The notes under the pieces: model-generated
Databases searched by the model: none
What the model was told of the DNA's origin: nothing
Seen by the model: the letters and a program-made list of their open reading frames with translations, nothing else
Shown here: piece by piece, positions 47,390 to 51,370 of the stretch
Layout: the number at the start of each line of letters is the position of its first letter
Position numbering within the stretch: position 1 is the stretch's first letter
Translations under genes and position numbers: made by a program
NCBI RefSeq assembly: GCF_007990265.1
Contig: NZ_BJWH01000005.1
Span: 124,001 to 188,000, forward strand
Length of the DNA stretch: 64,000 nucleotides
Direction of reading: 5' to 3'
From: Cellulomonas terrae
Lineage (GTDB): Bacteria > Actinomycetota > Actinomycetes > Actinomycetales > Cellulomonadaceae

Positions 47390-47872
47390 ATGACGCACGA
47401 CGACGACATCGCCACGGTGGCCGGTCTCATCAAGGACGCGAAGATCGCGATGCTGACGACGGTCGGCGCGGACGGCTCGCTGGTCAGCCGGCCCATGGGG
47501 GTGCAGGACGTCGACTTCGACGGGGACCTCTGGTTCTTCGCGGACGCCGACAGCCACAAGGTGCACGAGATCGAGGCGGGCAGCCCGGCGAACGCGGCCT
47601 TCGCCGACGCGACCGCGTGGGTCTCGGTCTCGGGCCCGGCCGAGGTGGTCCGCGACGTGGCCAAGAACCGCGAGCTGTGGGGCGCGACGGCCGAGGCGTG
47701 GTTCCCCGACGGACCCGAGACCCCCGGCCTGGTGCTCGTCGTGCTGCACGGGCGGACGGCCGAGTACTGGCACGCCAAGGGTGGCCGCCTGACGACGGCG
47801 TTCAGCCTGGTCAAGGCCAAGGTCACCGGTGAGCGCTACGACGGCGGCGAGAACGAGACGGTGCAGCTCTAG
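47390..47872 (+). CDS. Pyridoxamine 5'-phosphate oxidase-fold protein (general stress type)
   Basis: A 160-residue split-barrel protein of the group often named general stress protein 26. The fold is seen in IAMLTTVGADGSLVSRPMGVQDVDFDGDLWFFADADS and VSVSGPAEVVRD. Members bind flavin or F420 and reduce or sense small molecules; the ligand is not known. GGAGG (47381-47385) precedes the ATG at 47390. The stop shares CTAG (47869-47872) with the convergent metZ gene. Confidence 0.87.
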   Translation: MTHDDDIATVAGLIKDAKIAMLTTVGADGSLVSRPMGVQDVDFDGDLWFFADADSHKVHEIEAGSPANAAFADATAWVSVSGPAEVVRDVAKNRELWGATAEAWFPDGPETPGLVLVVLHGRTAEYWHAKGGRLTTAFSLVKAKVTGERYDGGENETVQL

Positions 47873-49128
47873 CCCGCGAGCGTCCCGAGGGCCTGCGCGA
47901 GGTCGTCGATGAGGTCCGCCGGGTCCTCGAGCCCCACGGACAGCCGCACGGTCGACTCGGCGATCCCGACCGCCGCGCGGCCCTCGGGACCGAGCTTGCG
48001 GTGCGTCGTGGTGGCCGGGTGCGTGACCAGGGACTTGGCGTCGCCGAGGTTGTTGGAGATGTCGACGACCCGCAGCGCGTCCAGGAAGCCGAAGGCGACC
48101 TTCTTGGTCACGTCGGGGGTCGCGCCCTCGGGCACGGCCAGGTTGAACGTGACGACGGTCCCGCCTCCGGACTGCTGCGCGAGCGCGAGCGCGTGCTGCG
48201 GGTGCGACGGCAGGTACGGGTAGCGCACGAGCGAGACCCCGGGCTGCTGCTCGATCCAGGTCGCGACCTGCAGGGCCGACGCGGTCTGGTGGCGCACCCG
48301 CAGCGACAGCGTCTCCAGGCCCTTGAGCAGCACCCACGCGTTGAACGCCGACAGCGACGGGCCGGTGTTGCGGATGAGGGTCTGCACCGGACCGTGCACG
48401 TACTCCTCCGTGCCGAGGATCGCGCCGCCGAGCACCCGGCCCTGCCCGTCGATGTGCTTGGTCGCGGAGTACACGACGACGTCCGCGCCGAAGTCCAGCG
48501 GCCGGGACAGCACGGGGGTGGCGAAGACGTTGTCGACGATGACCGTCGCCCCGGCGGCGTGCGCGAGCCGGGTCACGGCCGCGATGTCGACGAGGTCCTG
48601 CATCGGGTTGGACGGCGTCTCGAAGAAGACCACGTCGGCCGGCGTGGACAGGGCCGCCTCCCACTGGTCGAGCTCGTGGCCGTCGACGTAGTCGGTGCGC
48701 ACGCCCCACTTGGCCAGGATCTCCTCGAAGATCACGACCGTGGACCCGAACAGCGCGCGGGCGGAGACGATGCGGGAGCCGGACTCGACCAGCGCCGCGA
48801 TCGCGGTGAACACCGCGGACATGCCCGACGCGGTGGCGACGGCCGCCTCGGCGCCCTCGAGCAGGCGCAGGCGCTCCTCGAAGGTGGACACGGTGGGGTT
48901 GTTGTACCGGGAGTACAGGAACCGGTCGGTGTCACCGGCGAACGCGGCCTCGGCCTCGGCGGCACCGCCGTAGACGAACCCCTGCGTGAGGAAGAGCGCC
49001 TCGGACGTCTCCTGGAACTGGCTGCGGACCAGGCCGCCGCGCACCGCGAGCGTGTCGGGGCGCAGGTCCGCACGGGGGGTGCGACGGTCGTCCCAGTCGT
49101 TCGGACCGGGGACGCGTCCGGCGCTCAC
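47869..49128 (-). CDS. metZ: O-succinylhomoserine/O-acetylhomoserine sulfhydrylase
   Basis: A 419-residue PLP enzyme of the Cys/Met metabolism family that makes homocysteine directly from an acylated homoserine and sulfide. The PLP lysine is Lys224 in VVYSATKHIDGQGR; YSRYNNPTVSTFEERLRLLEGAEA and SNNLGDAKSLVTHPATTTH are also diagnostic. The GTG start overlaps the rhodanese stop by four bases (GTGA). The pair lies behind a SAM-I riboswitch, as expected for methionine synthesis. Confidence 0.93.
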   Translation of the reverse strand: MSAGRVPGPNDWDDRRTPRADLRPDTLAVRGGLVRSQFQETSEALFLTQGFVYGGAAEAEAAFAGDTDRFLYSRYNNPTVSTFEERLRLLEGAEAAVATASGMSAVFTAIAALVESGSRIVSARALFGSTVVIFEEILAKWGVRTDYVDGHELDQWEAALSTPADVVFFETPSNPMQDLVDIAAVTRLAHAAGATVIVDNVFATPVLSRPLDFGADVVVYSATKHIDGQGRVLGGAILGTEEYVHGPVQTLIRNTGPSLSAFNAWVLLKGLETLSLRVRHQTASALQVATWIEQQPGVSLVRYPYLPSHPQHALALAQQSGGGTVVTFNLAVPEGATPDVTKKVAFGFLDALRVVDISNNLGDAKSLVTHPATTTHRKLGPEGRAAVGIAESTVRLSVGLEDPADLIDDLAQALGTLAG

Positions 49129-49538
49129 GCCTGCCGCCAGGGCAGACCGGCGGCGCGCCAGCCGGAGTGGCCACGGTGCCCGTCGGGACCCACGTCGCCC
49201 TCGAAGCCCTCCAGCACGTTGTACGCCGGACCGAGGCCCGCGGCGGTGGCGGCCTGCGCGGCCGCGATCGAGCGCACGCCCGAGCGGCAGAGGAACACGA
49301 CCGGCCGGCCGGCCGTGACGCCCGCCTCGGTGAGCTGCTTGAGGAACTGCGGGTTCGGGCGTCCCGACGGGTAGGAGACCCACTCGACCAGGGCGGCGCG
49401 CCCGTCGATCGGGGCGGAGTCGGGGATGCCGACGTAGCGCCACTCGGCGTCGGTCCGGACGTCCACGAGCACGGCGCTCTGGTCGGACGTCAGGAGGTCC
49501 CAGGCCTGCTGGGGGGTCAGGTCGCCGGCGTAGCTCAT
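49125..49538 (-). CDS. Rhodanese-like domain protein (sulfur carrier)
   Basis: A 137-residue single rhodanese domain. The active-site loop is FLCRSGVRSIAAA, with the persulfide-bearing Cys, and the fold starts with LTPQQAWDLLTSDQSAVLVDVRTDAEW. It probably carries or delivers sulfane sulfur near the homocysteine-forming MetZ with which it is translationally coupled. Its ATG (49538) overlaps the stop of a 19-codon leader ORF by four bases, so its translation may depend on that leader and on the SAM-I riboswitch. Confidence 0.9.
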   Translation of the reverse strand: MSYAGDLTPQQAWDLLTSDQSAVLVDVRTDAEWRYVGIPDSAPIDGRAALVEWVSYPSGRPNPQFLKQLTEAGVTAGRPVVFLCRSGVRSIAAAQAATAAGLGPAYNVLEGFEGDVGPDGHRGHSGWRAAGLPWRQA

Positions 49539-49594
49539 ACGGGCCTCGTCTCGTGGGTGGTGGCGCGCCTGCGTTCGATCGGTCGGGCCGTCAT
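49535..49594 (-). CDS. Leader peptide ORF (19 codons) after the SAM-I aptamer
   Basis: A small ORF encoding MTARPIERRRATTHETRPV. GGAGG (49599-49603) sits four bases before its ATG and shares two G's with the 3' strand of the SAM-I aptamer's P1 stem (49602-49606). Its TGA overlaps the rhodanese ATG (ATGA). When SAM folds the aptamer, the ribosome site is partly paired; when it is absent, translation of the leader could carry ribosomes onto the rhodanese and metZ genes. The peptide is basic and has no Met or Cys codon run, so attenuation by stalling is unlikely. Confidence 0.68.
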   Translation of the reverse strand: MTARPIERRRATTHETRPV

Positions 49595-49601
49595 GTCGCC
49601 T

Positions 49602-49696
49602 CCATCGGTCCTGGCGGTAGCACCCTCGGCCGGGCACAGGGTGCCCGCGGGTTGCTGCGGCGTCGTCGAGCCAGATCTCTCAGCCGCTCTGGATGG
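49602..49696 (-). promoter_or_regulatory. SAM-I (S-box) riboswitch aptamer
   Basis: Read on the minus strand, the region has the S-box core in order: CCATCCAGAGCGGCTGAGAG, ATCTGGCTCGACGACGCCGC, AGCAACC, a variable GC hairpin, then GGTGCTACCGCC and AGGACCGATGG. The P1 closing stem is CCATC/GATGG. The GAC-GA internal loop corresponds to the kink-turn and GCAACC/GGTGC to the SAM core. It lies upstream of the rhodanese-metZ pair and senses S-adenosylmethionine to shut methionine synthesis. No terminator hairpin follows, so control is probably of translation. Confidence 0.9.
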
Positions 49697-49703
49697 TGCG
49701 GCG

Positions 49704-49733
49704 ATGCTACGCGCGGCGACGCCCGCGCTCCAA
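49704..49733 (-). promoter_or_regulatory. Promoter of the SAM-I/leader/rhodanese/metZ transcript
   Basis: On the minus strand TTGGAG (49728-49733), an 18-base spacer and TAGCAT (49704-49709) form a -35/-10 pair. Transcription would begin near 49697, right at the first base of the SAM-I aptamer, which supports both calls. Confidence 0.6.
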
Positions 49734-49779
49734 GTGGTGGACAAGGCGTCCCGTCAGGCGAGACGGTTCGCGTGCCGCG

Positions 49780-49809
49780 TTGACAGGTCCCCGGACGTGC
49801 CGGGACCCT
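49780..49809 (+). promoter_or_regulatory. Promoter of the SAM-IV/aminotransferase transcript
   Basis: TTGACA (49780-49785) is a consensus -35. GACCCT (49804-49809), 18 bases on, is a weak -10. The predicted start near 49816 is at the first base of the SAM-IV aptamer. The two divergent promoters in this region have about 46 bases between their -35 boxes. Confidence 0.55.
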
Positions 49810-49816
49810 CGTCACA

Positions 49817-49933
49817 GGTCATGAGCGCCAGCGTCAAGCCCCGGCTCGCTGGCCGGCAACCCTCCTCCGCGGTGGGGTGCCCCGGGTGACGACCTGGCCG
49901 CGCCCCGCCCGGGTCGCGGCAAGCGCGGGGTTC
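49817..49933 (+). promoter_or_regulatory. SAM-IV riboswitch aptamer
   Basis: The sequence follows the actinobacterial SAM-IV consensus closely: GGTCATGAGCGCCAGCG, TCAAGCCCCGGCTCGCTGGC, CGGCAACCCTCC, a CGCGGTGGGGTGCCCCGGG block and GTGACGACC closing P1, then a downstream hairpin and GCGGCAAGCGCGGGGT forming the extra pseudoknot that marks SAM-IV. It lies 43 bases before a class V aminotransferase gene. A hairpin between GTCC (49947-49950) and GGAC (49968-49971) could mask the GGAGGA ribosome site (49965-49970), suggesting translational control. Confidence 0.88.
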
Positions 49934-49975
49934 CACCGCAGGCGGTGTCCCCCCGGAACGTGTCGGAGGACCATC

Positions 49976-51370
49976 ATGACCGTCATCGCCGAGCGCCCCT
50001 CGTGTGCCTCCGTCGACGAGGTGGGCGCCCTGCTCCCGGTCGTCGGCGGCACCACCACCGTCCCGCTGGTCGACGGCACGCAGCGCGTCTACGCCAACCT
50101 GGACTACGCCGCCAGCGCCCCGGCGCTCGAGGCCGTCGCCGCCCGCGTGACGGAGGTGCTGCCGCTGTACGCGTCCGTGCACCGCGGCGCCGGGTACCTG
50201 TCGCAGGTGTCGACGGCCCTGTACGAGTCGGCCCGCCAGACCGTCGCCCGGTTCGTCGACGCGCGTCCCGACGACGTCGCGATCATCACGCGCAACACCA
50301 CCGACTCGCTCAACCTCCTGGCGGGCGTGGTCCCCGACGGTGGCCGGGTCCTCGTCCTGGACGTCGAGCACCACGCCAACCTCCTGCCCTGGGTGCAGTC
50401 GAGCGAGCGGCACGGCAACCGCACGACGATCCTGCCGATCGCACGGACGGTCGCCGAGACGCTGGACGCGCTGCGCGCCGAGCTCGCCCGGCAGCCGTAC
50501 GCGCTGGTCACCGTCACCGGCGCGTCCAACGTGACCGGCGAGGCGCTGCCGATCGACCAGGTCGTCGCGCTCGCCCACGCCGAGGGTGCCCGCGTGGCGG
50601 TCGACGGCGCGCAGCTGGTCCCGCACCGCGGCTTCTCGCTGACGAGCACGGACGCCGACTACGTCGCGTTCTCCGGCCACAAGACGTACGCACCGTTCGG
50701 TGCGGGGGCCCTCGTCGGCCGTCGCGACTGGCTGGACACGGGCACGCCGTACCTCGCCGGCGGTGGCGCGGTGCGCGACGTGCGCGCCGACCGGACCGTC
50801 TGGCAGCCCGCGCCGGCGCGCCACGAGGCCGGGTCGCCCAACGTCATCGGCGCCATCGCGCTGGCGGAGGCGTGCGACCAGCTCGCCGCGCTCCCGGCCG
50901 GCGCCCTGGCGGCGCACGAGGAGGCGCTCCGGGAGCGGCTCGTCGCCGGGCTGTCGGCCATCGACGGCGTCGAGGTCGCGCGCATCTGGCCCGACTCGGA
51001 GGCGCCCGTCGGTGTCCTCACGTTCACGGTGCCCGACCACGACCCCGGCCTCGTCGCGGCGTACCTCGCGGCCGAGCACGGCATCGGGGTCCGCGACGGT
51101 CGCTTCTGCGCGCACCCGCTCCTGGCGCACCTCGGCGCGTCCGGCGGGGCCATCCGCGCGTCCGTCGGTGTCGGCACGACGAGCGAGGCCGTCGACCGCC
51201 TGGTCGTCGCGCTCACGCAGTACCTGTCGACGGGCCCCGCCGTCCGCTACGAGGTCGTCGACGGCTGCTGGGCGGTCGTCGAGGACACCCGACCCCTCCT
51301 CGCGGTCCACGGCCTGAACCACCTGGCGGCGACGGCCGCAGCAGCCTGCGGCCCCGCCCTGGACGACTGA
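49976..51370 (+). CDS. Class V aminotransferase (cysteine desulfurase-like fold)
   Basis: A 464-residue PLP enzyme. The PLP lysine is Lys236 in VAFSGHKTYAPFGAGALVG; the fold shows NLDYAASAPALEAV near the N-terminus, RNTTDSLNLLAG, DVEHHANLLPW and GVRDGRFCAHPLLAHLG. It resembles cysteine desulfurases, but the usual catalytic-Cys loop is not clear, so it could be a selenocysteine lyase-like or other C-S/aminotransferase enzyme. The SAM-IV riboswitch in front ties it to sulfur amino-acid metabolism. ATG at 49976 follows GGAGGA (49965-49970). Confidence 0.87.
   Translation: MTVIAERPSCASVDEVGALLPVVGGTTTVPLVDGTQRVYANLDYAASAPALEAVAARVTEVLPLYASVHRGAGYLSQVSTALYESARQTVARFVDARPDDVAIITRNTTDSLNLLAGVVPDGGRVLVLDVEHHANLLPWVQSSERHGNRTTILPIARTVAETLDALRAELARQPYALVTVTGASNVTGEALPIDQVVALAHAEGARVAVDGAQLVPHRGFSLTSTDADYVAFSGHKTYAPFGAGALVGRRDWLDTGTPYLAGGGAVRDVRADRTVWQPAPARHEAGSPNVIGAIALAEACDQLAALPAGALAAHEEALRERLVAGLSAIDGVEVARIWPDSEAPVGVLTFTVPDHDPGLVAAYLAAEHGIGVRDGRFCAHPLLAHLGASGGAIRASVGVGTTSEAVDRLVVALTQYLSTGPAVRYEVVDGCWAVVEDTRPLLAVHGLNHLAATAAAACGPALDD

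Follow-up and report, generated by a model that had tools for sequence, protein, structure and literature searches.

We propose that a short intergenic region of Cellulomonas terrae holds a conserved divergent module, in which riboswitches of two different SAM classes, acting independently at high SAM, would lower two operons that together probably channel sulfur into homocysteine. One operon encodes a rhodanese-like sulfurtransferase and MetZ, and lies behind a SAM-I (S-box) aptamer; the other begins with a SufS-like enzyme, and lies behind a SAM-IV aptamer. Both elements look like translational OFF switches that use different platforms, and we infer that both RNAs bind SAM and that binding turns expression down. 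Taken as a whole, this two-switch reading is the best explanation that we can offer for the locus, and we think it probably right.

Two SAM aptamers between divergent sulfur operons

The window analyzed is a stretch of 64,000 nucleotides. A cmscan search of its whole length against Rfam, at the Rfam gathering cut-offs, returned two matches only, each full-length to its model: SAM-IV on the plus strand (106.6 bits, cut-off 38, E 1.3e-18) and SAM-I on the minus strand (53.3 bits, cut-off 44.4, E 1.9e-9). They lie 117 bp apart on opposite strands and point away from each other (Table 1). The original prediction of two aptamers of differing SAM class between two divergent operons is hence upheld, neither score falling below its threshold, and the limits that it gave (49602-49696 and 49817-49933) are at most 3 nt off those of Rfam. 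Three features described below, namely the translational platforms, the remnant leader ORF and the conserved element between the promoters, go beyond that prediction. The SAM-I class is marked by a pseudoknot between the P2 loop and J3/4; by eye, the P2 loop CUGGC of the window aptamer can pair with GCCAG at 49615-49611 on the minus strand, and in the SAM-I of a Cellulosimicrobium locus (L227) the loop reads GUGGC and its partner GCCAC. SAM-IV has an additional pseudoknot between the P3 loop and the 3' tail, which CCGCG and CGCGG can form here, again by eye.

Table 1. Features of the divergent SAM-I/SAM-IV locus (window coordinates).
Feature	Position	Strand	Basis or detail
MetZ, O-succinylhomoserine sulfhydrylase	47869..49128	-	TIGR01325, 600.9 bits, cut-off 510.05; 4-nt overlap with rhodanese stop
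Rhodanese-like sulfurtransferase	49125..49538	-	PF00581, E 4.7e-11
19-codon leader ORF (MTARPIERRRATTHETRPV, then stop), in-frame DUF1737 remnant	49535..49594	-	alignment with intact gene
Shine-Dalgarno GGAGG in SAM-I P1 3' strand	49599..49603	-	sequence
SAM-I (S-box) aptamer, RF00162	49599..49699	-	covariance score
SAM-I P1 5' strand, CCAUC	49692..49696	-	pairs with GAUGG 49606-49602
Putative SAM-I transcript promoter, TTGGAG-18-TAGCAT	49704..49733	-	hexamers 49733-49728 / 49709-49704
GTCCCG-N5-CGAGAC element, candidate regulator site	49748..49764	+	15 nt upstream of SAM-IV -35
Putative SAM-IV transcript promoter, TTGACA-18-GACCCT	49780..49809	+	hexamers 49780-49785 / 49804-49809
SAM-IV aptamer, RF00634	49817..49931	+	covariance score
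SAM-IV pseudoknot tail, CGCGG	49924..49928	+	pairs with P3 loop CCGCG 49867-49871, by eye
Alternative ON-state hairpin, predicted	49926..49955	+	CGGGG 49926-49930 with CCCCG 49951-49955
SD-masking OFF-state helix, predicted	49947..49971	+	GUCCCCC 49947-49953 with GGAGGAC 49965-49971, one mismatch
SufS-like class V PLP enzyme (cysteine desulfurase relative)	49976..51370	+	family scans, alignment

The gene calls made at the outset, namely rhodanese, MetZ and a class V aminotransferase fold on the plus strand, all hold under family scans. Against the SufS model (TIGR01979) the plus-strand enzyme scores 284.1 bits, below the cut-off of 475.1, and a canonical SufS encoded elsewhere in the same genome exceeds it at 551.6 bits. 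The likeness of the enzyme to SufS rests on sequence alignment and active-site residues: most of its sequence can be aligned with cysteine desulfurases of solved structure, and it keeps in place the Cys (RDGRFCAHP for RAGHHCAQP) and the Lys (SGHK) that we take to be the active-site and PLP residues, respectively. Of the roles first proposed for the two operons, that of making homocysteine stands with MetZ, and that of a separate second pathway has to be corrected. Because the plus-strand gene is a SufS-like cysteine desulfurase relative in which both residues are kept, a single sulfur route is likelier than two unrelated pathways. Judging from families and neighbourhood, cysteine desulfurase, rhodanese and MetZ could pass the sulfur of cysteine to O-succinylhomoserine.

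In all, the genome has two aptamers of each class, SAM-I and SAM-IV, and the window locus is the only one with both. The second SAM-I (L114 / L002, G000:C28:47056-47151) ends its P1 with GGAG and is followed by a 21-codon ORF that shares a GTGA overlap with the next start; from its translation, the gene behind it appears to be metF. The second SAM-IV (L004 / L115, G000:C3:243725-243844) scores 77 bits and precedes a frame whose translation reads as a luciferase-like monooxygenase.

Conservation of the divergent pair

In a sample of 200 genomes of the Cellulomonadaceae, SAM-I is found in 181 and SAM-IV in 179, and both classes occur together in 175, a figure obtained from the genomes listed as lacking a match, on the assumption that one unlisted SAM-IV miss is G154. 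Looking in related genomes for the same head-to-head pair, as had been suggested with the original prediction, finds it widely: at least 49 SAM-I/SAM-IV pairs lie no more than 5 kb apart among the matches listed, and all 49 are divergent. This count is a lower bound, because the listing from which the pairs were drawn gave 150 matches per aptamer family (112 and 141 genomes). The two switches are separated by 97-165 bp in 31 of these pairs and by 318-1457 bp in the other 18, and in each of six wider gaps inspected, other open frames lie between the switches. Seventeen of the listed pairs (L097-L113) have 725-1457 bp between the switches and are still divergent. The pair can be recognized by its sequence pattern in four more genomes of the family (G057, G083, G093 and G127). 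A strict version of the close-pair pattern matches 20 of 396 genomes of the order, and five of those matches fall outside the family. One neighbour was scanned in four of these five loci (L131-L135), and proved to be a family 5 solute-binding protein in L131 (SAM-I side) and L132 (SAM-IV side), a rhodanese in L133 (SAM-I side), and a periplasmic binding protein in L135 (SAM-IV side). Since these neighbours include solute-binding proteins, the arrangement is not bound to one gene set.

An independent sample consisted of the best 80 of 242 relatives of the plus-strand protein, mostly from Cellulomonas, plus Oerskovia, Sanguibacter, Cellulosimicrobium, Timonella and others. SAM-IV stands upstream of the gene in all 80, and a divergent SAM-I scores over the cut-off in 58, within 200 bp in 48 of them. 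Eight of the 22 loci lacking a SAM-I call have the exact SAM-I 5' end in place, and a re-scan at a lower threshold of five of the 22 (one among those eight) returned a divergent SAM-I in every case, at 37.7-44.2 bits and at a distance from SAM-IV of 109-160 bp in four loci and 768 bp in the fifth; inspection by eye of four of these loci showed, in each, an SD-bearing P1 end ahead of the rhodanese frame. Further copies of either class occur nearby in some genomes: in G014, G037, G054 and G068, two SAM-I aptamers share a strand and are separated by about 1 kb, and a second SAM-IV (L210:328-441, 111.8 bits, minus strand) lies about 1.9 kb from the SAM-IV ahead of the SufS-like gene.

The strongest competitor to a module is plain co-location, in which two separate SAM-repressed units have nothing in common except the intergenic region. 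The coexistence of both classes in most genomes of the family speaks for it, as do the 18 wider separations and the open frames found within six of them; against it stand divergence without exception among the 49 listed pairs, close spacing in 31 of them, and gene sets that are plausibly linked. We regard co-location as a serious contender on which we would nonetheless not bet.

A predicted strand exchange in the SAM-IV leader

For the SAM-IV leader we propose a concrete translational platform; the available text of PMC6890682 contains neither the term "expression platform" nor "Shine-Dalgarno". Without SAM, the pseudoknot strand at the end of the aptamer would pair with a C-rich strand downstream, and the Shine-Dalgarno sequence (SD) of the SufS-like gene would be left free. 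With SAM, the pseudoknot strand would join the P3 loop, and the C-rich strand so freed could cover the SD. The first of these helices (the tail helix) and the second (the SD helix) were scored in 44 distinct leaders of the 49, with start codons located by the SGHK/AGHK motif (found in 49/49 leaders; a DYAA-type motif gave 22/49), and duplex energies were computed for 41, the long leaders L070, L074 and L075 having been dropped.

The tail helix scores 13.84, compared with 12.20 +/- 0.39 when tails are swapped between species (0/300 as high) and 10.21 +/- 0.49 in shuffled spacers (0/200), and its duplex energy of -8.90 is likewise reached by none of 300 swaps (-8.04 +/- 0.17). The SD helix scores 10.86, which no shuffled spacer attains (8.42 +/- 0.72, 0/200) and which 24 of 300 swapped pairs equal (10.05 +/- 0.53); its duplex energy, -12.90, is reached in 35 of 300 swaps (-12.47 +/- 0.35) and in 0 of 300 shuffled spacers. 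Because swaps between species reach its score, the support for the SD-masking helix is one of composition more than of covariation. The partners of the tail and of the SD overlap in 37 of 41 leaders, and shuffles overlap in 30.8 +/- 2.5, with 1 of 300 as high. From these comparisons the predicted tail helix is well supported, and the putative SD-masking step moderately so.

When the tail was folded by itself, in 22 of the 49 leaders, with the pseudoknot strand blocked, the SD was predicted to become less accessible (by more than 0.1) in 12 leaders and more accessible by that margin in none, with little change in 10; many free tails already have a poorly accessible SD, and such tail-only thermodynamics are by themselves too weak to prove a switch. 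The minimum-energy fold of the whole leader (z -1.57) pairs the start codon with the 5' end, and the switch is not apparent in it. In that fold, GGUCAUGA at 49817-49824 and UCAUGACC at 49974-49981, at the start codon, form a perfect complement of 8 nt, which we take to be due to chance because, by eye, it is absent from relatives whose coding sequence begins ATGTCC or ATGTCT.

The SAM-IV leader might instead act on transcription, either through a terminator hairpin behind the pseudoknot strand or through a Rho site exposed by SAM. Transcription-level riboswitches are common elsewhere, and a G+C-rich hairpin does follow directly behind the aptamer. A scan of 49400-50100 on both strands, which requires a T run, found no terminator-like site, so that an intrinsic terminator is rejected, and the C-rich strand is able to pair with both the tail and the SD, as exchange at the level of translation would have it. 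We therefore hold control of transcription to be unlikely, if still worth weighing with regard to a Rho site, and retain translational masking of the SD as the preferred reading of this leader.

Riboswitch class and gene

Class and gene keep company among the 49 listed pairs: behind SAM-IV comes a frame bearing the SGHK/AGHK motif in all of them, behind SAM-I a rhodanese N-terminal motif in 47, and no swap of class between the two sides was seen. It seems that riboswitch class tracks the gene by descent, SAM-I with rhodanese-metZ and SAM-IV with the SufS-like enzyme. The original prediction had raised another reason for using two classes, namely that the sensors differ in their affinity for SAM, giving each operon a set point of its own. 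One class per operon would suit such tuning, but class follows the gene, and a SAM-IV stands alone before a cysteine desulfurase in Streptomyces lividans, according to the accessible part of PMC8079986. Since descent accounts for the choice of class on both counts, we find a difference in set points doubtful as the explanation. The locus is nevertheless a natural replicated experiment, in which many species carry two structurally different sensors of one metabolite within a short stretch of DNA, and tuned choice (by affinity, kinetics or platform) and inherited choice of class can be compared in it side by side within one cell.

A Shine-Dalgarno sequence within P1 of SAM-I, and an eroded gene behind it

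The 3' strand of the SAM-I P1 is GAUGGAGG, and the GGAGG within it is the SD of the next frame, whose ATG follows at 49594. The same layout, with an SD-like sequence at the end of the aptamer and an ATG or GTG 3-10 nt beyond it, is found in 47 of the 49 paired loci (in the other two, L069 and L072, the SD lies outside P1), in 13 of 15 other SAM-I loci and in the metF copy of the same genome; in G166 the start after SAM-I is GTG only, with no ATG. With SAM bound, P1 would fold, and because its 3' strand is the SD of the first frame, initiation would be blocked directly. In the minimum-energy fold of the whole leader (z +1.64), the switch is not apparent.

The frame that would be so controlled has 19 codons, and its TGA overlaps the ATG of the rhodanese gene (ATGA). 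In a near relative, L082, the same place is held by a 68-codon DUF1737 gene with both ends as in the window ORF, from which 49 of its codons are missing, in frame. Motifs of the DUF1737 type are present at 10 of the 49 paired loci; remnants are even shorter in G020 and G166, the frame is shifted in G188, and in most of the remaining loci, the first frame after SAM-I is the rhodanese itself. A frame-shifted DUF1737 gene lies between SAM-I and the rhodanese in L086. Because of the overlap of stop and start, the block would probably pass from the 19-codon ORF to rhodanese and metZ by translational coupling, and the start and stop of the ORF may have been kept because it is through the ORF that the riboswitch reaches the rhodanese. 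A GAGG lies 5 nt ahead of the rhodanese ATG, and independent initiation is hence also possible. That the ORF is instead a sensing leader peptide (an attenuator) would fit its length, its SD inside a riboswitch, its overlap with the next start and the similarly placed 21-codon ORF before metF, but we consider this very improbable and reject Cys or Met sensing, as it contains no Cys, has its only Met at the start, and matches both ends of the L082 gene with 49 codons missing. Taken as a remnant, the ORF illustrates how a gene may erode to a short frame and yet retain the start that the riboswitch controls and the stop that overlaps the next gene.

Promoters and the element between them

Each aptamer had been predicted to begin at the start given by its own promoter. 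Both pairs of hexamers are present with 18-nt spacers, and the starts predicted from them fall near the first bases of the aptamers; a strict sigma-70 consensus scan of 49400-50100 (9/12 matches) finds no promoter, so that the putative promoters rest on position and conservation. By eye, TTGAC stands ahead of SAM-IV in 31 of 31 close pairs.

Between the promoters lies the GTCCCG-N5-CGAGAC element, near -57 relative to the SAM-IV start. The motif (C/T)GAGAC, (C/T)GAGAT or CAAGAC occurs in 28 of the 31 close-pair spacers, against 4.4 +/- 1.9 in shuffles, and 27 of these 28 motifs lie 14-16 nt before the TTGAC of SAM-IV; in seven close pairs it is doubled, with the copies 21 bp apart. Among SAM-IV loci without a listed partner, (C/T)GAGAC in either orientation is found within 120 nt in 12 of 13 (shuffles 3.0 +/- 1.5), a set that is impure, since no fewer than two of the 13 (G011 and G127) have a divergent SAM-I 5' end; among SAM-I loci without a listed partner it is found in 6 of 15 (shuffles 2.8 +/- 1.5). 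The second SAM-IV of the C. terrae genome lacks the GAGAC motif in the 130 nt upstream, and GTCYCG-N4-6-CGAGAC has 23 strand-wise matches in that genome versus 7 for a reversed control; a regulon spanning the genome was weighed for this motif and set aside. The GAGAC-type element is put forward as a candidate regulator site, mainly of the SAM-IV promoter.

It is tempting to join all of these parts into a family-wide module. Riboswitches of two classes that sense the same ligand, two translational platforms and a regulator site between the promoters would then act jointly to keep in balance the enzymes that donate and accept sulfur for homocysteine synthesis. This fuller proposal is a tentative one, and we would give it somewhat less than an even chance.

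Relation to known systems

Many of the parts are already in print: the portions of PMC2258182 and PMC8079986 available to us describe both aptamer classes and the SAM-I platform, as well as a SAM-IV that precedes a cysteine desulfurase and a genome in which the two classes occur together. A literature search of limited depth found no conserved head-to-head pair of two SAM classes, and because of that depth, we regard the conserved two-class divergent pair as only provisionally new, with parts that are known.

The SAM-I half of the module is a known mechanism. SAM-I aptamers with the ribosome-binding site in the 3' side of P1 have been described as direct translation attenuation (Barrick and Breaker 2007, PMC2258182, in the part available), and there, as in the window, the SD forms part of P1; the window differs from those switches in that its SD serves a gene remnant overlapping the rhodanese start, and in that the switch faces a SAM-IV. 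The closest parallel to the SAM-IV half is Streptomyces lividans, in which, by the same accessible part of PMC8079986, SAM-IV precedes a cysteine desulfurase and SAM-I is also in the genome, before threonine-biosynthesis genes. Aptamer class, kind of gene and the presence of both SAM classes in the genome are thus alike, but in S. lividans the SAM-I lies at another genome site, and no head-to-head pair is described in that text. Finally, tandem or contiguous riboswitches, as presented in the accessible text of PMC12452182, also place several riboswitches in one intergenic region, where they control one gene or operon. The pair in the window shares with them the presence of more than one riboswitch in a single intergenic region, and differs in that its switches lie on opposite strands, each on a transcript of its own, instead of on one transcript serving one gene or operon.
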